A stretch of 42,538 bases of DNA from NCBI GenBank assembly GCA_019038625.1, contig JAHOYU010000072.1, positions 1-42,538 of the forward strand. The letters run 5' to 3'. The notes under the pieces were generated by a model. That model worked only from the letters and a program-made list of their open reading frames with translations. It had not been told where the DNA came from and did not search any database. This document shows positions 1 to 18,240 of this stretch, piece by piece (positions within the stretch are counted from its first letter, which is position 1; each line of letters begins with the position of its first letter). Source of the DNA: Candidatus Latescibacterota bacterium (GTDB lineage: Bacteria; Krumholzibacteriota; Krumholzibacteriia; Krumholzibacteriales; Krumholzibacteriaceae). A program made the translations under genes and the position numbers.

Positions 1-1064
1 CATATATATAGCCCTGCCAGGCCGAGTTCCGACATGCAGAGGACCACCGAGTTGTGCGCGGTCAGGTGATGGTGCTCTGTGAAATTATGAAACCCCACTC
101 CAAGGATGGGTCGCCAGAAAAGAAGGTTCAGCCCCGTCGCCCAGGCGTCGATACGGCCGCTCGCCGAGGCCTCGTCGATCGACATGTCGGACATCCTGCT
201 AGGACCCAGTGCCAGCGCCGCAGCGCTGAAGATAGCACCTGTGATCAGGCCTTTCACCAGCCCTATCCTTTTGCAGAGCAGCATCGTTGATACGGCCAGA
301 AGCCCGAGGAAGGTACCCCTGGAATTTGTCAGATACAGAGCGTAGATCAATATGGCGAGGGACAGGATCCAGAGGATCCTCTTCAGTATCCCTATCTTTT
401 TATTCAGTGATTTAAGCATGGCGAAAGGTGTAAAGGCGAGTATGGTCAACCCGAGATCGTTCGGGTCTGAGAAGATCCCGATCCACCTGATCCTTCCCTC
501 ATACATCGTCTGTCCCGCGATATCATATCCTCTGACATACTGCAGGATCCCGTTCAGTGAAAGTGCCAGGGTCATGAAAAAGAGCAGGTAAAATGTCTGT
601 TTGAGTTGATTCGGATCGACAATCAGGTTGACGATCATGAAAAAGAGGAGAAACACGGGCAGAAAGTCGCTGAACGATTCCTGCGCGCCTGTCAGGTAGA
701 AACGCTGAAGGTGACTCAGTGGTATAAGCAGGAAGAAGACCAACATGAAGATGCTCTGTCTGTTGTTGACCACTCTCATCGGCCGTTTCTCTATTGCGGC
801 GTGCAGTATGAGAGTGCCGAGGAGCACGAACGCGAGAGCGAGCATCAGTGGTTGTTCCCTCAGCGCCGGAACGAATTCCTGGGGACGCAGGTATGTCATC
901 GTCAGATAGATAAGGAGTCCCTGGTATGGATAGAAGAATACAATGGTTCCCACTATCCCCCCGGCGAACACCACCAGCGCGGCTTTAGCGGAGACCAGAA
1001 GCAGTGTGATCGCGAATGCCGCGAACACCGTTGCCAGGACCGGTATGACAGATTTGTTCCTCAT
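1..1064 (-). CDS. O-antigen ligase / polymerase-like membrane protein (partial, C-terminus outside window)
   Basis: The leftward reading frame is open from an ATG at 1064 to the window edge, giving about 354 residues without a stop. It begins MRNKSVIPVLATVFAAFA and is strongly hydrophobic, with roughly eight to ten predicted membrane segments. Near residues 45-65 it has a YPYQGLLIYL...YLRPQEF segment, which I associate with the O-antigen-ligase-like family of surface-polymer loci. Near the cut end it reads GVGFHNFTEHHH, then HNSVVLCMSELGLAGLY. This matches the H-N-x5-ExGxxG pattern of the Wzy_C domain. Such proteins join or polymerise lipid-linked oligosaccharides on the periplasmic face of the inner membrane. 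It diverges from the two-domain hydrolase gene across 159 bases. Its Shine-Dalgarno sequence is weak. Ligase versus polymerase, and the exosortase-associated subfamily, cannot be settled from sequence alone. Confidence 0.82.
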   Translation of the reverse strand, partial: MRNKSVIPVLATVFAAFAITLLLVSAKAALVVFAGGIVGTIVFFYPYQGLLIYLTMTYLRPQEFVPALREQPLMLALAFVLLGTLILHAAIEKRPMRVVNNRQSIFMLVFFLLIPLSHLQRFYLTGAQESFSDFLPVFLLFFMIVNLIVDPNQLKQTFYLLFFMTLALSLNGILQYVRGYDIAGQTMYEGRIRWIGIFSDPNDLGLTILAFTPFAMLKSLNKKIGILKRILWILSLAILIYALYLTNSRGTFLGLLAVSTMLLCKRIGLVKGLITGAIFSAAALALGPSRMSDMSIDEASASGRIDAWATGLNLLFWRPILGVGFHNFTEHHHLTAHNSVVLCMSELGLAGLYI

Positions 1065-1223: not shown

Positions 1224-3176
1224 ATGCCTGAAGAACGATCATTCTTTTTCAGAACTGAAGACAGGCCTCTATACGGGCGGTTGTATGCGCCTGGTGGGGG
1301 CACTCCGCCAGCCGGGAGCAGGGGGCTGGTGATCTGCGATTCGCTCTTCGAAGAGAAGTTCTGGTGCGAGAGGGTCCATTCCAATCTTGCGAGGCGTCTT
1401 TCCTGTGCTGGATGGACGGTACTGACCTTTGATTATTACGGGTACGGCAATAGCGGGGGAGACAGCGACGATGTGACTCTGACCTCGATATATGAGGATA
1501 TCGGAGCGGCCTGTGACCTGCTAAGGGGAAAGGGTGTGGACACAGTATCGCTGCTCGGGTTGAGATGGGGAGCTCTTCCAGCATGCGAAGTGGCGTCCAG
1601 GAGAGAGGATATCGACAGCATATTCCTGGTAAACCCGGTCAGGAAATGGAAAAAACAGTTTATGAAGGCCCTCAGGGCCAATGTGGCGGGGCAATACGCG
1701 ATCTTTAAAAAGGTCGTCATGACCAGGGATAAGATCATCGAGGAACTTCTCTCCGGCGGCGACTGCGTCAGATCCGGATACCATATGAACAATATCGATG
1801 GATATCTCATATCGAATAAATTCTTCGAAGAGGTATCCGATGCTGCTTTCCCTGAAGCTCTTCCCGGCAATATTTCAAAAGCGGCAGTGATAACGATACC
1901 GGAAAATCAGGCATCGTCCGAAGCCTCAGTCGACCCGCTTGCCGAGACCTGGAGGTCTGCCGGTGCCGACTGCGAAGACGTTTTTATAGCGGAAGACAAC
2001 GCTTTCTGGATAAATAACAGGATATTTACTTCCGATACACCGAGATTTTTCAGTGTCATGGAAGGTCTTCTTGGATCTGTCGGGGATATTGTTCCCGGGG
2101 CCAGCAAGGGAGTTCCATCGATCACCGAGGCACCGTCATGTGTCATCGATGGTGTTCGGGAGGAGGCGGTCACGGTCATCTCGCCGGACGGTCACCAATT
2201 GTGTGGAGTGACTTACGTGCCGGAGAACGGCCCGCGGAATGAGGGCTTTGTTTTCACCCACGGTGGACTGATAGGCATGAACGGCGCTTTCAGGTTCAAT
2301 ACGAGAGCGGCGAGGAGACTGGCCAGGGCCGGTTATCCGGCCATTTGCTGCGACACTCATGGGATGGGCAGGTCGGGCGGACTGATCGAGAACCAGGAGC
2401 AGAGAGTCCTGTTCAGAGAGATCTGCGCCGGACTGTTCGCCGGTGACGTTCATGCTGCGGCATCGTACTTGAAGGAAAAGGCCTCTGTTGAAAAAATTGC
2501 TCTTTTCGGAGTCTGTGGCGGAGCGATAACCAATATCCTCTCCCACAGCATCTATGAAGATATCGACGAATCTATTCTTCTCAGTGTGCCGGTCATGTTG
2601 CCGAGTCTCGATTACGGCGAGGTCAGGATGAGCGAGGGATTCGCGAAGTTCTACCTGGGACTTTATCTGCGGAAGATCTTCAACCCCGTCGCATGGTACC
2701 GTTTCATCACAGGTAAAAGTGAGACTGACAAGATCGGCAAATCGTTGAAAGTCGCCCTGGGCGGTATGATGAAGAAACTGTCGGGAGTCGGCAGAAAGAC
2801 CGGGAACACTCCCAAGCCAGTGGGCAGCGGAGGGACTCCGGCATCTGGTTCCTGCGTGGCTGCGAAAAAGGAAGTCAGGGGCGGGCTCAGTGTCACTGTT
2901 CCCGGTGCGGGAGACCTGCAGTTCAACAAAGGATTTCTCGACGCTTACAACCGTATCACGGGCCGGGGTGGACGCGTGTATTTCATCTTCGGCGAACATG
3001 ACAATTTCAAGTATGAGTTCAACAGCGAATTTGTCGACGCGATGCCGGAAGAGTTCCAGGCGGGAATAGACGCAGTGACTGTCGAAGAGATAGCTCAAGC
3101 CAACCACATGTACACATTGCGCGAATGGCAGGATATCATCATAGACAAATGTATGGCCTGGATAACACCTGGTTGA
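1224..3176 (+). CDS. Two-domain alpha/beta hydrolase, resembling fused exosortase-A-associated hydrolases 2 and 1
   Basis: The product is 650 residues if it starts at ATG 1224; an in-frame TTG at 1197 would add nine. Two alpha/beta-hydrolase units are visible. The first (about 1-170) has a RGLVICDSLFEE segment, TFDYYGYGNSGGD, and a nucleophile elbow reading GLRWGA, with Arg where Ser should be. The second (about 315-650) has VFTHGGL, CCDTHGMGRSGG, and an elbow GVCGGA with Cys as candidate nucleophile. It also has a late Asp in FGEHDN and His in ANHMYT, so a Cys-His-Asp triad is possible, as in dienelactone hydrolases. A Gly/Pro/Ser-rich linker lies around 520-560. From memory, exosortase-A-associated hydrolase 2 has GLRLGA and hydrolase 1 has GLCDGA, so this looks like a natural fusion of both. 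No signal peptide is seen, so it is probably cytoplasmic. The substrate is unknown; removing or transferring an acyl group in surface-polymer assembly is an inference. Confidence 0.75.
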   Translation: MPEERSFFFRTEDRPLYGRLYAPGGGTPPAGSRGLVICDSLFEEKFWCERVHSNLARRLSCAGWTVLTFDYYGYGNSGGDSDDVTLTSIYEDIGAACDLLRGKGVDTVSLLGLRWGALPACEVASRREDIDSIFLVNPVRKWKKQFMKALRANVAGQYAIFKKVVMTRDKIIEELLSGGDCVRSGYHMNNIDGYLISNKFFEEVSDAAFPEALPGNISKAAVITIPENQASSEASVDPLAETWRSAGADCEDVFIAEDNAFWINNRIFTSDTPRFFSVMEGLLGSVGDIVPGASKGVPSITEAPSCVIDGVREEAVTVISPDGHQLCGVTYVPENGPRNEGFVFTHGGLIGMNGAFRFNTRAARRLARAGYPAICCDTHGMGRSGGLIENQEQRVLFREICAGLFAGDVHAAASYLKEKASVEKIALFGVCGGAITNILSHSIYEDIDESILLSVPVMLPSLDYGEVRMSEGFAKFYLGLYLRKIFNPVAWYRFITGKSETDKIGKSLKVALGGMMKKLSGVGRKTGNTPKPVGSGGTPASGSCVAAKKEVRGGLSVTVPGAGDLQFNKGFLDAYNRITGRGGRVYFIFGEHDNFKYEFNSEFVDAMPEEFQAGIDAVTVEEIAQANHMYTLREWQDIIIDKCMAWITPG

Positions 3177-3255: not shown

Positions 3256-4263
3256 TCAGTCGCTGTCCGCGGATTTTTCCAGTCTGTCTCTCACCATCTT
3301 GACGACAGACTCATCGGATGCTTCCTCGAGCCTCTCGATGGCTTCCTGCCTCTTCATGTAGCCTCCCCTGACAAGTCCGGCCAGTTCGAAGGCGTAGGGG
3401 TGGAAGCCCAGTCGCTCCTTGTGTACATCGATACCTACCGCGTTGAGCAGGCAGTTGGTCGAGTTTGGATCTGTGTCGTCCGGTTTTTTCCAGCCGAGAT
3501 CCTTGATCTGCTCGATGATGGCCTTTTCATCGTATTCAAGAAAGGCCAGGGGACTCACGTTGGTCGGGAAACGTTCAGGTGTGGAGAAATGATCCTCTGT
3601 GAGGAAGTAGTTCGACACGCCTTCGCCCACTACTTTGGACATGGGGTCGGTGAACTGTTCCTGCATCGAACGGATCATGTCAGGATTGTTTTTGAAGATC
3701 GAGGCTTCCACCGGGGCTTGTCCCGGTGACCAGCCATAGAAGATGAATGGGATGTTTCCCTCGATCGCAAGACGAAGGGCGACAAACTTGACTATCCCCA
3801 TGCATGTCGTGCAGATCGAGCTGGCTCTTTCCAGTCCCTTGCGCGAATAGATGTCCTCGTCGGCGCAATGCAGGAAGAGCTTACTTAAAGTGTCGAGCCT
3901 GGGCTTGTACAGGACATGGTCCACGTTGAGGCCCTCTACGACATTGCGGATATTCTCAAGTGACTGCGGAGAGATAAACCCGTTGTCCAGCGTCATGGCG
4001 AGGATCGAAAGGTCGTACTCGTTTTTCAGTACAGCCATCGTGTACGTCGAATCCTTGCCGCCGCTGAACGCCATAATGGCATCGTATCCACCAGTCCGGT
4101 TTTTTTCTGCCAGAAGCTTCTCGAAGCGGCCTTTGTATTTTGCCATCGATTTTTTCAGACGTTCCACACCTCTGAACATCCTGCAGAAATTACATACGCC
4201 GTCTTCATCGAATTGTATCCCCGGGTATGTTTCGGGGAGAACGCATTTCGTACATCTTTTCAT
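3256..4263 (-). CDS. N-acetyl sugar amidotransferase-like PP-loop enzyme (WbpG/PseA/LegX family)
   Basis: The product is 335 residues from the ATG at 4263. GAGGAAGG lies five bases before that ATG, which favours it over the ATG at 4278 that overlaps the nadE-like stop. It opens MKRCTKCVLPETYPGIQF with zinc-type cysteines C4/C7 and C24/C27. The PP-loop FSGGKDS is at about 67-72 and a further CTTCMG is near 151-155. This arrangement matches WbpG/PseA-type enzymes, which activate a carbonyl or amide oxygen of a sugar with ATP and replace it with nitrogen to make acetamidino groups on LPS, flagellin or capsule sugars. Ammonia partners of the HisH/HisF type are not in the window. It is the last gene of the ACP operon, tightly coupled to the nadE-like gene, suggesting that both amide-forming enzymes act in one surface-polymer pathway. 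The exact acceptor is unknown. Confidence 0.8.
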   Translation of the reverse strand: MKRCTKCVLPETYPGIQFDEDGVCNFCRMFRGVERLKKSMAKYKGRFEKLLAEKNRTGGYDAIMAFSGGKDSTYTMAVLKNEYDLSILAMTLDNGFISPQSLENIRNVVEGLNVDHVLYKPRLDTLSKLFLHCADEDIYSRKGLERASSICTTCMGIVKFVALRLAIEGNIPFIFYGWSPGQAPVEASIFKNNPDMIRSMQEQFTDPMSKVVGEGVSNYFLTEDHFSTPERFPTNVSPLAFLEYDEKAIIEQIKDLGWKKPDDTDPNSTNCLLNAVGIDVHKERLGFHPYAFELAGLVRGGYMKRQEAIERLEEASDESVVKMVRDRLEKSADSD

Positions 4264-4274
4264 TACAGCCTTCC

Positions 4275-5249
4275 TCATAATTTCAGTTCGGGCGCGGGAG
4301 GCAGCTGCCTCAGGGTCGCCGTCGCTTTTTTCTTTCTCTCCAGATCTTTCCAGGCCCTGTCGACCTGTTCTACGGTCATGCCGATCACCTCGGCTGTTTT
4401 TTCTATAGGGACTTCGTTAAACATCGCGTACATCACCAGGTCCAGAGTCTCGTACGGCATGCAGAAGTAGAAATCCTTGTCGCTCACCGGCAGCGAGTAG
4501 GTGTCCGGGCTGGGAGTCCTGTCGAGTACTTCCTGCGGCACACCGAGATGCCTGCCGAGTGCGAATACCTGTGCTTTGTAAAGATCGGTAAGTGGCTCGA
4601 TATCGACCCCTCCGTCTCCAAACTTGACGAAGAAACCCTGGATGGTCTCGGGTAGATTGGTCGTTCCGCATACGATGTAGTGCCGTTTTTCAGCTTCGTA
4701 GTATAGCTGTGTCATCCTGACGCGCTGCTTTATATCGTTTGCAGCCATCATTTTCAGGTAATCCTTGTGAGCCAGTCTTTTCGATTCGATTTTTCCTTCA
4801 GCGATCTCTACCTCGAGATGGTAGGTGCTGATCCTGTCCCTGTCCAGGAGGTCCTGCGGGAGAGTGAGGCGGAATTTCTGATCGCCGTCGTACTCGGGGA
4901 AATATTTTTCTACGACAGAATCACGCTTGGCGTAGACCCCGAAGACATCGAGCATTGGGGATATCTCTACCTCGTGATACCGGATATCGAGTGACTCGGC
5001 ACATTTTCGGCCATACTCCCTGCTGACCGGGCTTGAGTCCCGTTCTGGAAGCAGAACGCCGAAAACACGGTCCTTACCCAGTGCCTTAACAGCCAGGGCG
5101 GCACAGACCGCCGAGTCGATTCCACCGCTGAGGCCTATTATTATCCCTTTTTTGTGAAAATTGTTCTGTACCTGGTCGCGTATGAAATCGACAAGTTGTT
5201 CAGTGATACTTTCTACATCGAAATCAAGTACGTTCCGGTTGAATTCCAT
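4275..5249 (-). CDS. nadE: NAD(+) synthase (NadE)-like ammonia-dependent amide synthase
   Basis: The product is 324 residues. It has the PP-loop GLSGGIDSA at about 39-47 and later the family blocks IKQRVRMTQLYYEAE and FVKFGDGGVDIEPLTDLYKAQVF. These identify the NH3-dependent NAD synthase fold, which adenylates a carboxylate and converts it to an amide. Several spots differ from the usual enzyme: GTTNLPET stands where GTGNKSE is typical, and PSPDTYSLPVSDKDFYF replaces the usual PSAGLW-GQTDE-type block. There is also extra sequence around residues 105-165. No glutaminase domain is fused. The gene sits 16 bases after the ligase gene. Its stop is followed 11 bases later by the preferred amidotransferase start, so it belongs to the surface-polymer operon. 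It may be the cell's NAD synthase, or a paralogue that amidates another carboxylate; I cannot decide which. Confidence 0.8.
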   Translation of the reverse strand: MEFNRNVLDFDVESITEQLVDFIRDQVQNNFHKKGIIIGLSGGIDSAVCAALAVKALGKDRVFGVLLPERDSSPVSREYGRKCAESLDIRYHEVEISPMLDVFGVYAKRDSVVEKYFPEYDGDQKFRLTLPQDLLDRDRISTYHLEVEIAEGKIESKRLAHKDYLKMMAANDIKQRVRMTQLYYEAEKRHYIVCGTTNLPETIQGFFVKFGDGGVDIEPLTDLYKAQVFALGRHLGVPQEVLDRTPSPDTYSLPVSDKDFYFCMPYETLDLVMYAMFNEVPIEKTAEVIGMTVEQVDRAWKDLERKKKATATLRQLPPAPELKL

Positions 5250-5265: not shown

Positions 5266-6813
5266 TCAGAGATTCTTTGTAGTTATTTTTCCGGTCGTTG
5301 TCCTGGGAAGCGATTCTCTCAGCTCTATTATCTTTGGTACCATGAAATCTTCAAGATTGCGCGAGCAGTGGGCGATGATCGCCTTCTCGCTGAGTTCAGA
5401 TCCATCTTTGAGGACGACGAAGGCCTTTACGGCTTCTCCCAGGATATCGTCGGGAACTCCGGTGACAGCAGCCTCTACCACATCTTCAATGGCGTAGAGC
5501 GCGTTTTCCACTTCCCTCGGGCTGACCTTTTCGCCCCTGCTTTTTATGATATCGTCCCTGCGCGAGACAAAATAGAGATACCCTTCCTTGTCCATCCTGA
5601 AAAGGTCACCTGTATACAGGGACTTTTCCCACGGATGTATGCCGGGCCTGAGCCTGCGGGCAGTCTCTTCGGGCAGTTCCCAGTATCCCTTCATCACGTT
5701 GGCTCCTCTTACGACGAGTTCGCCGGTCACGTCGGGGCGGGTGATGAGGTCATCATTTTCATCGACCAGATAGACCTGCTCGTTCGGCATGCCTTTGCCC
5801 ACCGATTCGGGGCGTATGTCGATCTGGTCCGGGTGAAGGTATGATACCCTCTTGCATTCTGTAAGCCCGTACATCGAGTATATCTTTGTCGAAGGGAAGA
5901 CATCTCTCAGTCCATTTATGTGGCTGACGGGCAGCGCCGCCGCTGTATTCGTAATGTAGCGAAGATTGCTGAAATCTTCTTTGGCCAGCTCTTTCATCTG
6001 GAGCAGGATGGCTGACATCGTCGGTACAATAGGAAAGCCGGTTGCTTTTTCCTCGTGGATGAGTTTGATAGTCTGATATGGATAGGTGAACGAACGCTCG
6101 AGTATCACCGTCCCGCTGAACTGAGCGGCCATTATCACCTGGTATAATCCATAGTCGAAGGAAAGGGGGAGGACGTTTATTATCCGGTCGTTCTCCGTGT
6201 TCTCAAGATATGTAGATACAGAGGTCGATGCCGCGACCATGTTGAGATGGGTCAGCATGACGCCTTTGGGATTTCCGGTCGATCCGGATGTGTAGATCAG
6301 AGCGGCAAGATCGATATCGATAGCTTTTCGTTCGGGCCTTGTTCCGGGCGCGTCGTTCAGTGCTTCGTCCAGCGTCAGGAAAGTAAGGGTGTCCGGCGAT
6401 GATTCCTTCAGTTCCCCGGCCTTATCTCCAGCACAGATAACGGTTTTCAGTGATTCTGCTTCCGCAGCGGCTTCCGCCGCCTGTCTCCAGCGTGACTGGT
6501 GAGTGATCAGGGCGGCTGCCCGGCAATTGCCCAGTATGTATCGTATCTTGTCCGATTTCGTCGTCGGATTGATGATAAGGAAAACGGCATCCGCCTTCAG
6601 GACCGCCCAAAGCGCGATAACGGTCTCGGGAGAATTATCGATCAGTATGGCTACCCTGTCTCCATACCCGACTCCTGAATCACGGAGGGTATGCGCTAGC
6701 TGGTTCGCCATATTATCGATCTCTCCGAAACTCAGCCTTCGGTCACCGGAGACGAGAGCCTCCCTGTCAGGATGACGCGATGCGCTGTTTTCCAGAAATT
6801 CCTGAAGGAGCAT
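5266..6813 (-). CDS. AMP-forming acyl-CoA/acyl-ACP ligase (ANL superfamily), exosortase-associated type
   Basis: The product is 515 residues, full length for the family. The adenylation motifs are all present: YTSGSTGNPKG (about 174-184), YGLTE (315-319), YTGDL (400-404), the hinge block RRDDIIKSRGEKVSPREVE (418-436), and the catalytic Lys in RTTTGKI (about 509). It should activate a carboxylic acid as an acyl-adenylate and load it onto a thiol. The ACP gene 32 bases upstream makes a phosphopantetheine arm the likely acceptor. The overall pattern resembles the ligase of the exosortase-A mini-cluster, although sequence alone cannot exclude an amino-acid adenylating enzyme. AGGCAGG lies about four bases before the ATG. 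It shares a putative sigma-54 promoter with the ACP gene. The substrate acid is unknown. Confidence 0.88.
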   Translation of the reverse strand: MLLQEFLENSASRHPDREALVSGDRRLSFGEIDNMANQLAHTLRDSGVGYGDRVAILIDNSPETVIALWAVLKADAVFLIINPTTKSDKIRYILGNCRAAALITHQSRWRQAAEAAAEAESLKTVICAGDKAGELKESSPDTLTFLTLDEALNDAPGTRPERKAIDIDLAALIYTSGSTGNPKGVMLTHLNMVAASTSVSTYLENTENDRIINVLPLSFDYGLYQVIMAAQFSGTVILERSFTYPYQTIKLIHEEKATGFPIVPTMSAILLQMKELAKEDFSNLRYITNTAAALPVSHINGLRDVFPSTKIYSMYGLTECKRVSYLHPDQIDIRPESVGKGMPNEQVYLVDENDDLITRPDVTGELVVRGANVMKGYWELPEETARRLRPGIHPWEKSLYTGDLFRMDKEGYLYFVSRRDDIIKSRGEKVSPREVENALYAIEDVVEAAVTGVPDDILGEAVKAFVVLKDGSELSEKAIIAHCSRNLEDFMVPKIIELRESLPRTTTGKITTKNL

Positions 6814-6845: not shown

Positions 6846-7091
6846 TCAGCCCTGTTTCTTCGTTACGTAGGCTATGAGCTTGTTGAGTGAATCAAAATTG
6901 TCGGGGACGAGTTCCTCGTCCAACACTTCGATATCAAATTCATCTTCAATGAAACCAACGACTTCCAGTACTCCTGTCGAATCGATTATACCCGATTCAA
7001 GAAAGGAGTCATCGTCGCCAATAGTTGCGTCGTCGGATCCGAAAAGGAAGTTTTCGATGACAAAACTTTTTATCTGTTCCCTGATATCCAA
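6846..7091 (-). CDS. Acyl carrier protein
   Basis: The product is 81 residues if it starts at TTG 7091, which has a perfect AGGAGG five bases upstream. An ATG at 7151 would give 101 residues, but the extra stretch lacks family similarity and the start has no ribosome site. The protein is acidic, with the phosphopantetheine attachment block FLESGIIDSTGVLEVVGFIEDEF; the Ser of DST replaces the more common DSL. The fold continues with FDIEVLDEELVPDNFDSLNKLIAYV. It would carry the acyl or aminoacyl group activated by the ligase encoded immediately downstream. It is the first gene of the four-gene operon ending at 3256. This is a specialised carrier rather than the fatty-acid AcpP, because of its neighbours and the DST motif (inference). 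Confidence 0.9.
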   Translation of the reverse strand: MDIREQIKSFVIENFLFGSDDATIGDDDSFLESGIIDSTGVLEVVGFIEDEFDIEVLDEELVPDNFDSLNKLIAYVTKKQG

Positions 7092-7096
7092 GAGGA

Positions 7097-7102
7097 CCTC
7101 CT
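7097..7102 (-). promoter_or_regulatory. Perfect Shine-Dalgarno deciding a TTG start for the ACP gene
   Basis: On the minus strand AGGAGG is followed by five bases and then TTG at 7091-7089, in frame with the ACP. The resulting 81-residue length is typical of carrier proteins. Confidence 0.7.
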
Positions 7103-7172
7103 GCAAATTTTTATTATCATTCGATTGGTACCCTGTATGGACGGTAACCATTTTACATCAGACTGACTATTA

Positions 7173-7254: not shown

Positions 7255-7893
7255 TCAGAATGTGCCGTTGAGGTATGGGTTTCGGACCTTTTCCTCACCG
7301 ATGGTCGTGGCAGGGCCATGACCGCAGAAGACGGCGGTGTCGTCAGGGAGAGTGAACAGTTCGCTTCTGACCGAGGCCACGAGTGTCTCCATGTCGCCGC
7401 CGAAGAAGTCGGTCCTGCCGATCGATCCGGCAAACAGTGTGTCGCCTGCAAAAACGGCATCACCCAGGACCAGGCTTATTCCTCCGAGAGTGTGTCCGGG
7501 AGTGTGCCGGACCTCTGCTTCGACTTCTCCGAATCGTATCGTGTCACCGGCGGAAAGAAGGGTCTTTACTTCCGGGTATTCCACATCGCCGAGGCCCCAG
7601 TGAGGTGAGTCTTCCACAGATTTTTTCATCGTCTCGATATCGTCTCCATGCATGGCGATCCCGATGTCGAATTCACGCGTCAACCCGGCCGCTGATGCCA
7701 TGTGATCACTGTGTCCATGAGTAAGCACTATCATGACCGGCCTCAGGCCGTCTTCCTTTACAGCGCTGATAATCGAGGGCGAGTCTCCCCCCGGGTCGAT
7801 GATTATGGCTTCCGAGCTTTTTGTGCAGGATACGATGAAACAGTTTGTACCGAGTGGCCCTACTACGAGGTGCCTGATCCGGATATCATCCAT
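7255..7893 (-). CDS. Metallo-beta-lactamase-fold hydrolase (glyoxalase II / YcbL-like)
   Basis: The product is 212 residues from ATG 7893. A GGGGAG stands upstream, and the start overlaps the ferredoxin stop by eight bases. Two-metal ligands are clear: THGHSDH (about 58-64), HTPGHT (130-135), FAGDTLFAGSIGRTD (148-162), and a late CGHGP (190-194). The length and the GSIGRTD block fit the short hydroxyacylglutathione-hydrolase-like group that often lacks the C-terminal glutathione-binding part. It would hydrolyse a thioester in the cytoplasm; the real substrate is unknown. It ends the cupin - barrel - flavoprotein - ferredoxin group and is translationally coupled to the ferredoxin. Confidence 0.88.
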   Translation of the reverse strand: MDDIRIRHLVVGPLGTNCFIVSCTKSSEAIIIDPGGDSPSIISAVKEDGLRPVMIVLTHGHSDHMASAAGLTREFDIGIAMHGDDIETMKKSVEDSPHWGLGDVEYPEVKTLLSAGDTIRFGEVEAEVRHTPGHTLGGISLVLGDAVFAGDTLFAGSIGRTDFFGGDMETLVASVRSELFTLPDDTAVFCGHGPATTIGEEKVRNPYLNGTF

Positions 7894-8116
7894 TCTTCGA
7901 TTTCTCCCCTTTTTGTGGACAGCGCAACGCCCCTGTTGGACAGACAAGCGCCGCCTGCCCGCAGGGGCGGCATCGCTCGGGAACCGACTTCAAGGTCAGC
8001 CCCTCGATAATGAGCGCTTCAGTCGGGCAGACGGCAACACAGGCTCCACAGACGATGCACTTGCTGTCGTCAATGCAAATCAGGTCAATATTTTTTTCAA
8101 CATCTCGTTCTGACAT
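7886..8116 (-). CDS. Small 4Fe-4S ferredoxin with degenerate second cluster motif
   Basis: The product is 76 residues from ATG 8116; an in-frame TTG at 8149 is possible but has no ribosome site. The first motif is canonical, CIVCGACVAVCP (C20, C23, C26, C30). The second reads CRPCGQAALVCP, where the third Cys of CxxCxxCxxxCP is Ala (residue 55); C49, C52 and C59 remain, and an extra C66 follows. The second cluster may therefore be 3Fe-4S, use C66, or be lost. It lies between a geranylgeranyl-reductase-family flavoprotein and a metallo-hydrolase and overlaps the latter. Archaeal geranylgeranyl reductases can take electrons from a ferredoxin, so it is plausibly the electron donor for the neighbouring flavoprotein (inference). 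Confidence 0.85.
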   Translation of the reverse strand: MSERDVEKNIDLICIDDSKCIVCGACVAVCPTEALIIEGLTLKSVPERCRPCGQAALVCPTGALRCPQKGEKSKNG

Positions 8117-8157
8117 GTCAATTATAACTCTTTCGATCAATATTTTCAATCCAAAGA

Positions 8158-9399
8158 CTATGTATTCAATCCTGAAAAGGTCTTCCTGGATCTTTTTCTC
8201 GCCGACAAGGCTTTCATCAAGGTCTTGCCAAGCAGGGATGGTGACGATCTGAGCAGCACTCCGATCAGTTTGGCGCTGCCCAGTCCTTTTCTCGTGATAA
8301 GGCCCTCTCTGGTGTTGAGGGCAGAAAGTACCTTGTCCATCGTTCTGTCGTCGAGACTATAGAAGACCTTTCCAGCAAGATAGAATCTCTTGTTCATTCT
8401 GCCTTCATTCCGTTTCCACTCTTTCGTGTAGGTCGAAAGTCCACTGGAACTGAAGTCTCCCTTTTCGAAGCATCTGCATATAGTGGTTGCCGCCATGTCA
8501 CCAGCCATTATCGCGTTCAGGATGCCACCGCCGGTGAACGGGTTGTTCTGATTCGCTGCCTCTCCGACGGCGATAAATCCGTCCACCGCAAGGGAGGGAA
8601 GAGAATCGGACAAAAGCGTTCCGCCACACACGAAACGTTTTCTATCGCCTTCCGGGCAGACGCGGTCCATGAACTTTTCGAGGTAGTCCCTGGCGGTGAG
8701 GCCTGAGGCCAGCTCGGGGTTGATTCCCACACCGATGTTGGCGCTGCCGTTCCCCTTGGGAAACACCCACCCGTATCCTCCGGGTGCGAAGGTCGACGAA
8801 AGATGGAATTCCACATATTTATCCGGAAGATCCACGCATTCGACCAGGTACTGGGCGCAGGAGAAGATCTCGTCGACCCGGGTAGGGCCTTTCAGCCCCG
8901 CCCATCTGGGCGAAAGAGATTCGACCCCGTCCGATCCGACTGTGATCTTGCTTTGCACACGGTATTTTCTGCGGGTGGATAACTCGAGGACATTTACGCC
9001 GACGACTTTCCCATCTTCGCGAATTAGACCGGTCGCCTGATGTCCAGTTCTTAGTACGGCTCCATTCGAACATGCGGCCTCAGCGATATGGAGGTCGAGG
9101 AGTTCACGGTCGACGATGTAACCTATACCCTTCATCTCTTTCTGGTATCTTTTTCCGTCAGGTGAGACGATGGTCAGGCCGTTCACGACGCTGGTGACGA
9201 ATGGTTCCTTCACATCTATATAGCGGGCTATTCCCTCAGCCGGGCCTATCGCTTCGGCGCAGCGGACCGGGTATCCGATCCTCTCTCTTTTTTCGAGTAT
9301 CAGCGTGGAAAGACCCAGGCGGGAAACACCAGAAGCGGTCCGGGTACCACCAGGACCGCCACCGATGACAACTACATCGAAACGTTCATCAGTCATCAT
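8158..9399 (-). CDS. Geranylgeranyl reductase family FAD-dependent oxidoreductase
   Basis: The product is 413 residues. The N-terminal FAD site is DVVVIGGGPGGTRTA (about 8-22), followed by the family blocks YPVRCAEAIG and later VGSDGVESLSPRW. The second FAD-contact block is GFIAVGEAANQNNPFTGGGILNAI. This pattern is typical of the family that saturates double bonds of isoprenoid chains in archaeal lipids, chlorophyll phytyl chains or menaquinone. In this bacterium, reduction of a quinone or polyprenyl side chain is the likeliest role, but other family members act on unrelated substrates. The start is an ATGATG pair three bases after the barrel gene's stop. The ferredoxin encoded just downstream is the probable reductant. 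The protein is expected at the inner face of the cytoplasmic membrane. Confidence 0.85.
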   Translation of the reverse strand: MMTDERFDVVVIGGGPGGTRTASGVSRLGLSTLILEKRERIGYPVRCAEAIGPAEGIARYIDVKEPFVTSVVNGLTIVSPDGKRYQKEMKGIGYIVDRELLDLHIAEAACSNGAVLRTGHQATGLIREDGKVVGVNVLELSTRRKYRVQSKITVGSDGVESLSPRWAGLKGPTRVDEIFSCAQYLVECVDLPDKYVEFHLSSTFAPGGYGWVFPKGNGSANIGVGINPELASGLTARDYLEKFMDRVCPEGDRKRFVCGGTLLSDSLPSLAVDGFIAVGEAANQNNPFTGGGILNAIMAGDMAATTICRCFEKGDFSSSGLSTYTKEWKRNEGRMNKRFYLAGKVFYSLDDRTMDKVLSALNTREGLITRKGLGSAKLIGVLLRSSPSLLGKTLMKALSARKRSRKTFSGLNT

Positions 9400-9402
9400 T
9401 CA

Positions 9403-10161
9403 TCAGAAGTAGTAATAGAAGTTCATCGCAAGCGAAAGACCCGAATAATCGATGTCGAAATTAGCGTTATGGATATCGAATTTGCTCTGGGACATCTGGT
9501 ACTTACCCTCCATACCTGCAGCCAGCTTGTTGGTCAAAAGGTACCGCATGCCGAATTCGATATGGATCCCCGACTGGAATGTGGTCTGGTCGAGGTTTTC
9601 ATCGGGCAGGTCGTAGCTGGCTCCCAGACCGGTGACGGCGCTGGTCTCAAGCTTCACCATCGGGATCACGCCGGAGAAGCCACCGGCGATATACGGCGCC
9701 AGGGCGCTTACTTTCGGTTCGATCAGGTAGTAGGCGAAACCCAGATCGATGGAGAAATAGTAGATTTTCAGTTCTCTCTCGATATCTAGAGGGATATTGT
9801 CCGCGTCGGGAATCTCCTGGATGAAATAGCCGACACTCGAATTATTCAGGTAACAGAACGATATATTGCCCCTGAAGAAATGGAAGGGAGTGACCATTCT
9901 CTCATACCCTATCGAGGCGTACGGCGATGTGGATATTCCTTCGAAGAAATCCTTTCCACCCTGAAGCTGGGCCCAGAAGCTCAGGTGATCAGTCAGATAC
10001 TCGTCGTCTGGTCCGTCGATGAACCCGAAACTGAAATTGATGTTGCTAATAGGAATGGGACCGAAATACTTCTTCTTCTTGTAGACCGATGGCCCCGCCT
10101 GAATGCTGTTTGCGAAGAAAATGGCAACCAGGACCGAGATGAACAGAAAAGTCTTTTTCAT
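9403..10161 (-). CDS. Outer-membrane beta-barrel protein (OmpA/OprF-like fold)
   Basis: The product is 252 residues from ATG 10161, chosen because GGGAG lies five bases upstream and the protein then opens with a clean signal peptide, MKKTFLFISVLVAIFFANSIQA. The mature part alternates polar and aromatic residues in strand-sized stretches, for example HLSFWAQLQGG, RGNISFCYLNNSS, YYFSIDLGFAYYL, APYIAGGFSG and HIEFGMRYLL. It ends LAMNFYYYF, with the terminal Phe usual for BAM-assembled barrels. About eight strands are likely. No OmpA peptidoglycan-binding domain is present. The function is unknown. It sits three bases before the flavoprotein gene, so co-transcription is likely, although the link may be only positional. 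Confidence 0.8.
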   Translation of the reverse strand: MKKTFLFISVLVAIFFANSIQAGPSVYKKKKYFGPIPISNINFSFGFIDGPDDEYLTDHLSFWAQLQGGKDFFEGISTSPYASIGYERMVTPFHFFRGNISFCYLNNSSVGYFIQEIPDADNIPLDIERELKIYYFSIDLGFAYYLIEPKVSALAPYIAGGFSGVIPMVKLETSAVTGLGASYDLPDENLDQTTFQSGIHIEFGMRYLLTNKLAAGMEGKYQMSQSKFDIHNANFDIDYSGLSLAMNFYYYF

Positions 10162-10250
10162 GAATGCTCCCATCGTCTGCGGATATTTCCCTGGACAGAA
10201 CCCTCTATGGTTAAAGTTACTTCCAGAATTGTTCGAAGTCAATCCAAACA

Positions 10251-10607
10251 TCAATCGTACGACGAGTTTGGTACCAGACAAAGAAATCTCGCAGGTGATT
10301 CTCCGGTGTTCGAGAACCGATGCATATTGCCTCCGGGTACGAAGATAAAATCACCTCCAATGAACGGTTTTTCTTCACCCTCGAATGTCAGGATGCCCTC
10401 GCCGGACACTATATAGACCTCATGTTCCCATTCGTGCGAGTGGAGGGGAGTGTGTCCTCCCGGGCCGACCTCGAACAGTCTCATCGCGAAATTCGGGGCG
10501 CCGTCAGCCTTCGAGATCAGCCAGCGGATCGATACATTCTCGACGCCTTCCATCTTCACTTCGCTGGCTTCGATCTCTGTCGCTTTCCCGATCTTAAGAT
10601 CCAGCAT
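10251..10607 (-). CDS. Single-domain cupin protein
   Basis: The product is 118 residues. GGAAGG lies about six bases before the ATG. The cupin metal motif 1 is GPGGHTPLHSHEWEHEVYIVSGEG (about 48-71) with ligands H-x-H and Glu, and motif 2 is PGGNMHRFSN (about 91-100). Small cupins of this kind bind a divalent metal and act as isomerases, dioxygenases or sugar/ligand sensors; the actual reaction cannot be read here. There is no signal peptide, so it is cytoplasmic. It is the first gene of the leftward group ending at 7255, with an 89-base gap to the barrel gene, so co-transcription is possible but not certain. Confidence 0.85.
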   Translation of the reverse strand: MLDLKIGKATEIEASEVKMEGVENVSIRWLISKADGAPNFAMRLFEVGPGGHTPLHSHEWEHEVYIVSGEGILTFEGEEKPFIGGDFIFVPGGNMHRFSNTGESPARFLCLVPNSSYD

Positions 10608-15957: not shown

Positions 15958-18240
15958 TTGAAACGAAGTGGATCAGTGTTTGGGCTTATGTGTGCGTGCA
16001 TTTTTCTTTTTGGCACCTGTGTCGTTCACGGGCAACCGAATGGATCAATCGTCGGATCTGGCACCTATGTCGTTGTGGAGCCAGCATCTCTCGACAGTCT
16101 CGTGGCGATTGCCGGGGGAGGGGAACACAGTCTGGCGCTCAGTTCCGATGGGTCTATCGTCGCGTGGGGGGCTAACATATCTGTCCAGTGCAACACTCCT
16201 GCTCCAAACGAGGACTTTATTGCGATATCAGGTGGGTGGGCCCACTCCCTTGGGCTCAGATCAGACGGGACGATAGGGGCCTGTGGATGGAACTATTACG
16301 GCCAGTGCAATATCCCCGCGCCGAACGAGGGTTTTGTTGCGATCGCCGCGGGAGAGGGACACAGTATGGGCCTCGGATCCGACAGTACGATTGTCGTATG
16401 GGGTAATAATAGCTACAGCCAGCGCGATGTTCCTGTGCCGAACGAGGATTTCGTTGCGATCGCGGGGGGTGGAGAACATTGCCTGGGTCTGAAGACCGAT
16501 GGGACGATCGTCGCCTGGGGACGGAACCTGGATGTCCAGTGCAACGTTCCAGCACCGAACGAGGATTTTGTGGCAATTGCCGCTGGTGGTGAACACAGTC
16601 TGGGTCTCAAGTCAGACGGGACGATCGTTGCCTGGGGACAGAACGGCTATGGACAGTGTAACATCCCGGAGCCAAACACAGATTTCATCGAAATAGCCTC
16701 AGGTGGGGATCACAGTCTTGGCCTCAAGTCCGACGGGACGGTAGTGGCCTGGGGACGGAACGACTCCGATCAGTGTAACATCCCGGTGCCGAATGAGAAT
16801 TTTGCTTCGATCGCCGGTGGTGAGGGACACAGTATGGGTCTGCTGGCCAATGGAGGCGTCGTGATCTGGGGATCAAACACTTCTGGCCAGTGCAACGTTC
16901 CCGTTTCAAACGAGGGCTTTGTGGATGTCGCCGGTGGCCAGTATCACACCCTGGGCCTTAAGGCCGATGGGATAGTAGTTGCCTGGGGACAGAACCATCA
17001 ATATCACCAGTGCGATGTTCCCCTGCCGAACTCTGACTTTGTTGATGTCACCTCACTGGGTAATCACAGCTTGGGGCTCAAGTCGGATGGGACCGTCGTA
17101 GCATGGGGGTACAACGATTTCGGCCAGTGCAACGTTCCCGAGCCGAATGACAGCTTTATAGTAATCGATGCTGGGGGAAGGCACAGCCTTGGTCTCAGGC
17201 CAGGAGGGACGATCGTGGCATGGGGGGACAATGGTTCTGGTCAGTGCAATATTCCAGCGCCGAACGTAGACTTTTTAGCTATCAGCGGGGGCGCGTCTCA
17301 CAGTCTTGGCCTGAAGGCCGATGGGACGATCATGGCCTGGGGGAACAACAACTATGGCCAGTGCGTCGTTCCTGCACCGAACGAAAGTTTCATAGCGGTA
17401 GCCGGGGGATATTCTCACAGCCTTGGCCTGAAGACTGATGGGACGATCGTGGCCTGGGGGAGTAACACCTCTGGCCAGTGCAATGTCCCAGCGCCGAACG
17501 AGGGTTTCGTCACGGTCGTATGTGGCGCGCACCATAGCCTGGGTCTAAAAGCCGACGCGACGATCGTGGCCTGGGGAATGAATGCTTATGGCCAGTGCGA
17601 CATGCCGGCTCTGAGCGAAGGTTTTGCATATGTCACAGCAGGATACCATCACAGTCTTGGATTGAATCGCGCGGAACTTATTGCGGTCGCATTCAGCAGT
17701 ATCGCCGCTGACTCCGAAGAAGGGGCAATAACGGTCCACTGGGAAGTTCAGGCTGATGAGGCGTTAAGCGGATTTCGACTGTATCGTGCTCCGATGCAGG
17801 GAGAGTTCTGTTGCATAACAGACATCCCGCTTTCTCCGTGCACGAGAACATTCGAAGACAGGACGATCGAGCCGGGGATGGAGTATCGTTACATGGTAGC
17901 GGTTTTGACGACGGATGGTCGTGAGATCCGTTCACTCGAGGTGACCGCCCATAGTATCGCTCCGCCACTGGCGCTTGGCCAGAACGTCCCCAATCCTTTC
18001 AATCCTCGAACGACAATCAGGTTTTCCGTGCCGGGTTCTCAGCACGTAGGGATCAATATCTACGACCCCGCGGGGCGTCTTGTGATGAAGCTCGTTGATA
18101 AACAGATGGAGGCAGGCAGTCATCAGATCGAGTGGGACGGCAGGGACAGCAGAGGGCGAGCTGTAGCTTCTGGTGTGTATTTCTACCGATTGACAGTGGG
18201 CAAGGAGACATCTACGAAAAAGATGATACTGTTGAAATAG
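15958..18240 (+). CDS. Secreted RCC1-like repeat protein with FlgD-like C-terminal domain
   Basis: The product is 760 residues with a TTG start, and AGGGGGA about seven bases upstream supports it. A signal peptide (MKRSGSVFGLMCACIFLFG...VVHG) is followed by 13 complete and one partial 39-residue repeats (residues about 49-570). The repeat pattern is HSLGLKSDGTIVAWG then N-x-x-GQCN-x-P-x-PN-x-x-F, matching the RCC1/BNR-like beta-propeller blade; each repeat carries a near-invariant Cys. A fibronectin-III-like domain follows (about 577-665), then a C-terminal FlgD-like Ig domain. The latter opens LGQNVPNPFNPRTTIRFSV, contains DGRDSRGRAVASGVYFYRL and ends KKMILLK. The C-terminal type is common on exported proteins of FCB-related candidate phyla and may serve in sorting or anchoring. 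Thirteen blades suggest two seven-blade propellers. No enzyme motif was seen; a binding or adhesion role is a guess. Confidence 0.88.
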   Translation: MKRSGSVFGLMCACIFLFGTCVVHGQPNGSIVGSGTYVVVEPASLDSLVAIAGGGEHSLALSSDGSIVAWGANISVQCNTPAPNEDFIAISGGWAHSLGLRSDGTIGACGWNYYGQCNIPAPNEGFVAIAAGEGHSMGLGSDSTIVVWGNNSYSQRDVPVPNEDFVAIAGGGEHCLGLKTDGTIVAWGRNLDVQCNVPAPNEDFVAIAAGGEHSLGLKSDGTIVAWGQNGYGQCNIPEPNTDFIEIASGGDHSLGLKSDGTVVAWGRNDSDQCNIPVPNENFASIAGGEGHSMGLLANGGVVIWGSNTSGQCNVPVSNEGFVDVAGGQYHTLGLKADGIVVAWGQNHQYHQCDVPLPNSDFVDVTSLGNHSLGLKSDGTVVAWGYNDFGQCNVPEPNDSFIVIDAGGRHSLGLRPGGTIVAWGDNGSGQCNIPAPNVDFLAISGGASHSLGLKADGTIMAWGNNNYGQCVVPAPNESFIAVAGGYSHSLGLKTDGTIVAWGSNTSGQCNVPAPNEGFVTVVCGAHHSLGLKADATIVAWGMNAYGQCDMPALSEGFAYVTAGYHHSLGLNRAELIAVAFSSIAADSEEGAITVHWEVQADEALSGFRLYRAPMQGEFCCITDIPLSPCTRTFEDRTIEPGMEYRYMVAVLTTDGREIRSLEVTAHSIAPPLALGQNVPNPFNPRTTIRFSVPGSQHVGINIYDPAGRLVMKLVDKQMEAGSHQIEWDGRDSRGRAVASGVYFYRLTVGKETSTKKMILLK
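16102..17667 (+). repeat. Thirteen and a half tandem 117-bp coding repeats
   Basis: The units encode 39 residues each (unit 8 has 40), and all lie in frame inside the RCC1-like gene. Words such as GACGGGACGATCGT and TGGGGA recur at the same phase. The copies are diverged at third positions, so this is an old array rather than a fresh amplification. Confidence 0.9.

Follow-up and report, generated by a model that had tools for sequence, protein, structure and literature searches.

The open reading frame (ORF) at positions 1224 to 3176 of the window, by which we mean the whole stretch of DNA analyzed (42,538 nucleotides, the entire contig C72 of a 3.78-Mb draft genome in 269 contigs), almost certainly encodes the single-chain form of a recurring two-protein unit, in which a pseudo-hydrolase with Arg at its nucleophile elbow is followed by an alpha/beta-hydrolase with Cys at that place. 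At roughly even chances, we infer that this unit is a Cys-dependent acyltransferase of an exopolysaccharide pathway, one that takes an acyl group off a carrier protein and attaches it to a polysaccharide.

The ORF lies on the forward strand, begins with ATG at position 1224, and continues for 650 codons to a stop at 3174 to 3176. Its product is one chain of 650 residues with two domains, both of which are predicted to adopt the alpha/beta-hydrolase fold (Table 1). The linker between the domains shows no conservation and varies in length in an alignment, is predicted with pLDDT below 50 at residues 291 to 294, and contains neither a stop nor a frameshift. The C-terminal domain has an insertion at residues 457 to 567, which was predicted with low confidence. 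Five full-length single-chain orthologs with 52 to 88% identity to the window protein were detected in other assemblies, one of them a single-contig genome, which argues against a chance ORF and confirms an earlier sequence-only reading of the gene as a natural fusion of two hydrolases. The elbows GLRWGA and GVCGGA noted in that reading, and the Asp and His downstream of the second, are present; all five orthologs retain both elbows, as G[LI]RWGA and GVCGGA, together with the two downstream residues, and fragments of other orthologs at contig ends are consistent with this pattern.

Table 1. Coordinates of the fused hydrolase gene, its domains and putative active-site codons, and neighboring genes in the window
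Feature	Coordinates	Strand	Basis
O-antigen-ligase-like protein, runs off contig	3..1064	-	Nearest TIGR03097, 69.9 bits vs cut-off 188.1
N-terminal alpha/beta-hydrolase domain, hydrolase-2-like, residues 1-289	1224..2090	+	TIGR03101 best NCBIfam match
Arg114 codon, nucleophile elbow of N half (GLRWGA, residues 112-117)	1563..1565	+	20-homolog residue counts
Inter-domain linker, variable, about residues 290-305	2091..2139	+	Alignment and pLDDT
C-terminal alpha/beta-hydrolase domain, hydrolase-1-like, Cys431-Asp593-His628	2140..3173	+	TIGR03100 best NCBIfam match
Cys431 codon, putative nucleophile (GVCGGA, residues 429-434)	2514..2516	+	Alignment with solved hydrolases; C-half model
Asp593 codon (FGEHDN), putative acid	3000..3002	+	Homolog counts; C-half model
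His628 codon (ANHMYT), putative base	3105..3107	+	Homolog counts; alignment with solved hydrolases
WbuX-like N-acetyl sugar amidotransferase	3256..4278	-	TIGR03573, 147.2 bits vs cut-off 203.2
NAD(+) synthase-like (NadE-like) amide synthetase, subfamily PRK00876	4275..5249	-	398.1 bits, above cut-off 313
AMP-forming acyl ligase	5266..6813	-	Nearest TIGR03098 (exosortase A system-associated), 480.4 bits vs cut-off 592.35
Acyl carrier protein (ACP), DSx phosphopantetheine site, Ser58	6846..7151	-	Profile search and motif

To place the two halves, we searched them separately against NCBIfam and Pfam. The best model for the N half (positions 1224 to 2090) was TIGR03101, hydrolase 2 of the exosortase A system-associated type (83.5 bits, 1.7e-23; curated cut-off, 202.75 bits), and that for the C half (positions 2091 to 3173) was TIGR03100, hydrolase 1 of the same type (65.4 bits, 4.8e-18; curated cut-off, 168.45 bits). 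The whole protein scored 104.6 bits against TIGR03101 and 104.8 bits against TIGR03100, again below both cut-offs. Because both scores miss the curated cut-offs, the halves are, by profile, relatives of these families and not members under the curators' rule; matches over either cut-off were absent from every genome of the phylum sample. The hydrolase 2 and hydrolase 1 assignment proposed earlier therefore stands as the best match for each half and fails as strict membership. Ordinary hydrolase families scored best for neither half, and such a placement was rejected, since the Pfam matches of both were generic alpha/beta-hydrolase families only (Hydrolase_4 and Abhydrolase_1) and weaker. The homologs' elbows read G-x-R-x-G in the N half and G-x-C-x-G in the C half. 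Of the motifs that the sequence-only reading gave for hydrolase 2 (GLRLGA) and hydrolase 1 (GLCDGA), GLRLGA occurs verbatim in an Azospirillum homolog. The order of the halves is that of the separate neighboring hydrolase 2 and hydrolase 1 genes of related genomes; the window protein differs from these in being one chain instead of two and in scoring well below the cut-offs.

Residue counts over 20 aligned N halves and 20 aligned C halves set the two domains apart. Where a nucleophile would stand in the N half, Arg is present in 15 of 20 and Gly in 5, the latter forming a Rhizobiaceae-type group that includes a Roseateles record; Ser, Cys, and Asp never occur there. The earlier suggestion that one half is non-catalytic is thus borne out in all 20 N halves. 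Glu44 is retained in 19 (Asp once) and a basic residue, Arg or Lys, at position 50 in all 20, so the N-half pocket may perhaps still bind something. All 20 C halves have Cys431 and His628, with Asp in 16, Glu in 3, and Ser in 1 at the acid position. In alignments with solved alpha/beta hydrolases, Cys431 coincides with the elbow Ser and His628 with the late His (GGDHTF/GADHTF). Because a fold search with the full chain had mixed both domains, the C half was modelled alone with AlphaFold2 (pLDDT 74, pTM 0.70). In this model, the Cys is residue 142 of the half and is flanked by strand 135-141 and helix 143-154; the Asp (304) lies just past the penultimate strand (295-301), and the His (339) between strand 329-334 and the last helix (344-358). 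Mean pLDDT of the catalytic-residue blocks was about 88 to 92; the insertion at the would-be lid position was predicted poorly. Sequence and predicted topology thus put Cys, Asp, and His at canonical places, the alignment that the sequence-only reading had proposed to look for by structure prediction. That reading's description of two degenerate hydrolases fits the N half, which has no nucleophile, and not the C half, in which Cys and His are invariant and the acid is Asp or Glu in 19 of 20. The C half therefore looks like a working Cys-His-Asp enzyme and the N half like a pseudo-enzyme. Polyhydroxyalkanoate synthases (PhaC) resemble the C half in having a Cys-Asp-His triad, a lipase-like box, and the alpha/beta-hydrolase fold, although no PhaC model was among the matches of the window protein.

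The two halves also occur as separate genes. In three genomes (G003, G005, and G006) they are adjacent on the same strand with hydrolase 2 first, in a fourth (G007) the two genes overlap by four bases, and these separate genes likewise match TIGR03101 and TIGR03100 best. In Variovorax (L044, 9992-10810 and 10803-11747), the pair consists of overlapping genes adjoining genes for NRPS, phosphopantetheinyl transferase, and polysaccharide export; here and in the four genomes just named, the separate genes are arranged head to tail. Single-chain versions of about 585 to 620 residues are encoded on Azospirillum, Mycetohabitans, Shinella, and Rhizobium replicons and, where annotated, are called only "alpha/beta hydrolase". 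They share with the window protein an Arg (or Gly) elbow followed by a Cys elbow and a late His, and the halves of the Azospirillum version too score best to TIGR03101 and TIGR03100. Relatives of this 603-residue protein were found in 56 plasmid records (24 at 80% or more of its length), by which we rejected the idea that the fusion is unique; the window protein itself returned nothing from plasmids at 1e-5. Plasmid p3 of Rhizobium sp. NLR16a (L051:5420-8731) encodes a 1,103-residue protein in which a membrane-flippase-like N-terminal region is joined to a tandem hydrolase of this kind whose first elbow has Gly.

A tree was built for each half from 20 sequences. In both trees, the Krumholzibacteriota-type fusions and the separate pairs of G003, G005, and G006 form sister groups (support 100/99), and the proteobacterial fusions are placed elsewhere; L044 sits on a long branch in the C-half tree. 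A single clade of all fused forms, which would unite the proteobacterial tandems with the window type, was rejected (AU p = 0.0018 for N halves and 0.0026 for C halves; the trees are unrooted and the p-values indicative). The simplest reading of these sequence trees is therefore that the fusion arose at least twice; alternatively, one ancient fusion may have been repeatedly split afterwards. The main splits are common to the two trees, as would follow from the halves having moved as a pair. Because fusion recurs in other phyla and the trees of the halves are congruent, the earlier proposal that the two separate proteins act together is, by inference, well supported, also by the adjacent separate homologs. 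We conclude that the fusion is real, conserved, and recurrent, and probably convergent.

Within the window, the ACP, ligase, NadE-like, and WbuX-like genes lie on the strand opposite to the fusion gene and are convergent with it. The functional motifs of these proteins are retained: the DSx serine of the ACP, SGSTGNPKG of the ligase, and the SGGxDS loops of the NadE-like and WbuX-like proteins. The O-antigen-ligase-like gene upstream is divergent from the fusion gene, and its nearest model is that of the exosortase A system-associated O-glycosylation ligase. Beyond the ACP gene, positions 7255 to 10281 encode a metallo-beta-lactamase-fold protein, a ferredoxin, a geranylgeranyl-reductase-family protein, and an outer-membrane-barrel-like protein, a set also kept in L027 and L033. 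Farther along (positions 15958 to 18240) is a 760-residue, secreted-looking protein with many imperfect repeats that by eye resemble RCC1 repeats (HSLGLKSDGTIVAWG) and a C-terminal tail that, also by eye, resembles a sorting domain.

Similar gene contents recur elsewhere. The ligase and NadE genes accompany the fusion gene in 7 of the 7 loci whose flank reaches that far; WbuX is present in all of these but L027, and ACP wherever the stretch is long enough. A cassette of asnB, ACP, AMP-forming ligase, and nadE is recurrent in Rhizobiales (L055, L056, L057, and L058) and was found in Mesorhizobium and Sinorhizobium; the Krumholzibacteriota cassette has WbuX where that of the Rhizobiales has asnB. 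In Shinella and in Roseateles sp. XES5 (a record flagged UNVERIFIED_ORG that resembles Shinella), this cassette lies roughly 4 to 9 kb from the fused hydrolase among polysaccharide genes, which the fused hydrolase adjoins in several genomes. Proteobacterial tandems often differ from the window type in being accompanied by amino acid-[ACP] ligase, DUF1839, and GH2 genes and not by the AMP-ligase cassette; in Azospirillum and Mycetohabitans, the fused gene comes last in a row of genes that otherwise encode ACP, acyl-CoA dehydrogenase, amino acid-[ACP] ligase, DUF1839, and GH2. For 7 kb around the tandems of Caballeronia, Rhizobium tumorigenes, and Peteryoungia, no carrier protein is annotated, and the examined flanks of the unfused pairs (G003, G005, G006, and G007) contain no homolog of the window ACP or ligase; in G003, the contig carries a homolog of the ligase at a distance of about 28 kb.

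The genome of the window encodes an exosortase (PF09721, 1.2e-64) at positions 17362 to 18123 of contig C12. It is XrtA-like, scoring 183.8 bits, below the XrtA cut-off of 208. Neighboring genes encode EpsI, a PrsK kinase that scores above its own cut-off, and a protein with a PEP-CTERM tail. In this region (L030:4167-11073), the exosortase gene adjoins that of a choice-of-anchor N protein with the PEP-CTERM tail TPEPGTLSLLGLGLIGIAPLLRKKKVG at its end, and EpsI and PrsK follow. No exosortase is encoded in the fused-hydrolase locus itself, a difference from the exosortase A system-associated hydrolases; with the exosortase on another contig, we rejected the fusion gene as part of an exosortase operon in this genome. 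Only in G003, G005, and G006 are exosortase and hydrolases found in one locus, with the exosortase gene about 3 to 4 kb from the separate pair. Because the two lie on different contigs here and about 1 Mb apart in the single-contig genome G014, and because no exosortase was found in G015, which has the fusion, the fused gene belongs to a polysaccharide and carrier-protein locus that can exist apart from the exosortase.

As for function, the transfer reaction, its donor and acceptor, the role of the N half, and every step of the following scheme are what we infer from these data. The neighboring AMP-forming ligase would load an acid onto the neighboring ACP, and the NadE-like synthetase and the amidotransferase might adjust amide groups of the acid or of a sugar. 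Cys431 would then take the acyl group from acyl-ACP as a thioester and pass it to a sugar of the polysaccharide or of a lipid-linked precursor. The N half would do no chemistry and could position or dock the carrier protein or the acceptor. Acyl transfer is supported by the pairing, fused and unfused, by the conserved Cys, His, and acid of the C half at canonical places, and by links, in several lineages, to genes for carrier proteins and adenylation. Against it count the position of the fusion gene, convergent with the ACP-ligase operon and outside it; the flanks of the unfused pairs, which have no homolog of the window ACP or ligase in the range examined, and three fused loci with no annotated carrier protein nearby (7 kb); the predicted structural neighbors, which are ordinary esterases and lipases; and the putative acid position, which is Ser in one homolog. 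CmaE and SyrC use a Cys nucleophile, and we know of no pseudo-hydrolase partner for either. Both of NRPS pathways, the AT-like protein CmaE and the homologous SyrC shuttle aminoacyl groups between carrier domains and provide the nearest worked precedent (PMC8748450); they are likened to the window protein by literature function, not by sequence.

Other activities were weighed against acyl transfer. The protein could be a Cys-type thioesterase or editing hydrolase that unloads mischarged carrier protein in the neighboring pathway, with the N half as a carrier-protein docking domain. We regard this as unlikely given the invariant Cys (20/20), since within the alpha/beta-hydrolase fold a Cys nucleophile is commoner in acyltransferases than in hydrolases; the fold and the carrier-protein and ligase context nevertheless fit as well, and LgnA, a type II thioesterase, carries out both transfer and hydrolysis (PMC8748450). 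A hydrolase or deacylating esterase acting on finished polysaccharide or a lipid-linked repeat, with the carrier-protein genes as mere neighbors, would suit the adjoining polysaccharide genes and the closest PDB folds, which were esterases and lipases (feruloyl esterases, lipases, and PETase-like enzymes). It is nonetheless quite doubtful with Cys instead of Ser in 20 of 20 C halves and with an association with carrier-protein loading genes that recurs. We consider it improbable that both halves are non-catalytic, as a scaffold or regulator in which Cys431 has a structural or redox role: no nucleophile is present in the N half and one C-half homolog has Ser as the acid, but a Cys and His invariant across phyla at about 25% identity, with an acidic residue in 19 of 20, are hard to explain without catalysis. 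Finally, since the window comes from a draft assembly, two genes might have been merged by an assembly or frameshift error; this reading has virtually no probability, ruled out as it is by the full-length orthologs in other assemblies and the uninterrupted linker.

Carrying acyl transfer further, we tentatively propose, at somewhat less than even chances, that hydrolases 1 and 2 of exosortase-type and related polysaccharide clusters may together make up a single enzyme not yet described, with a pseudo-hydrolase and a Cys-acyltransferase as its subunits, fused at least twice in evolution. It would take acyl or aminoacyl groups from a dedicated carrier protein and decorate exopolysaccharide with them. 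A literature search for the function of exosortase-associated hydrolases 1 and 2 found no paper describing it in the library covered; a search for the amino acid-[ACP] ligase and DUF1839 clusters and the asnB-ACP-ligase-nadE cassette likewise returned nothing on function. The fused forms indicate that hydrolases 1 and 2 are partners rather than independent enzymes and that only one of them is likely catalytic. Their repeated fusion ties exosortase-type clusters to the otherwise seemingly unrelated aminoacyl-carrier-protein clusters of Azospirillum and Mycetohabitans.
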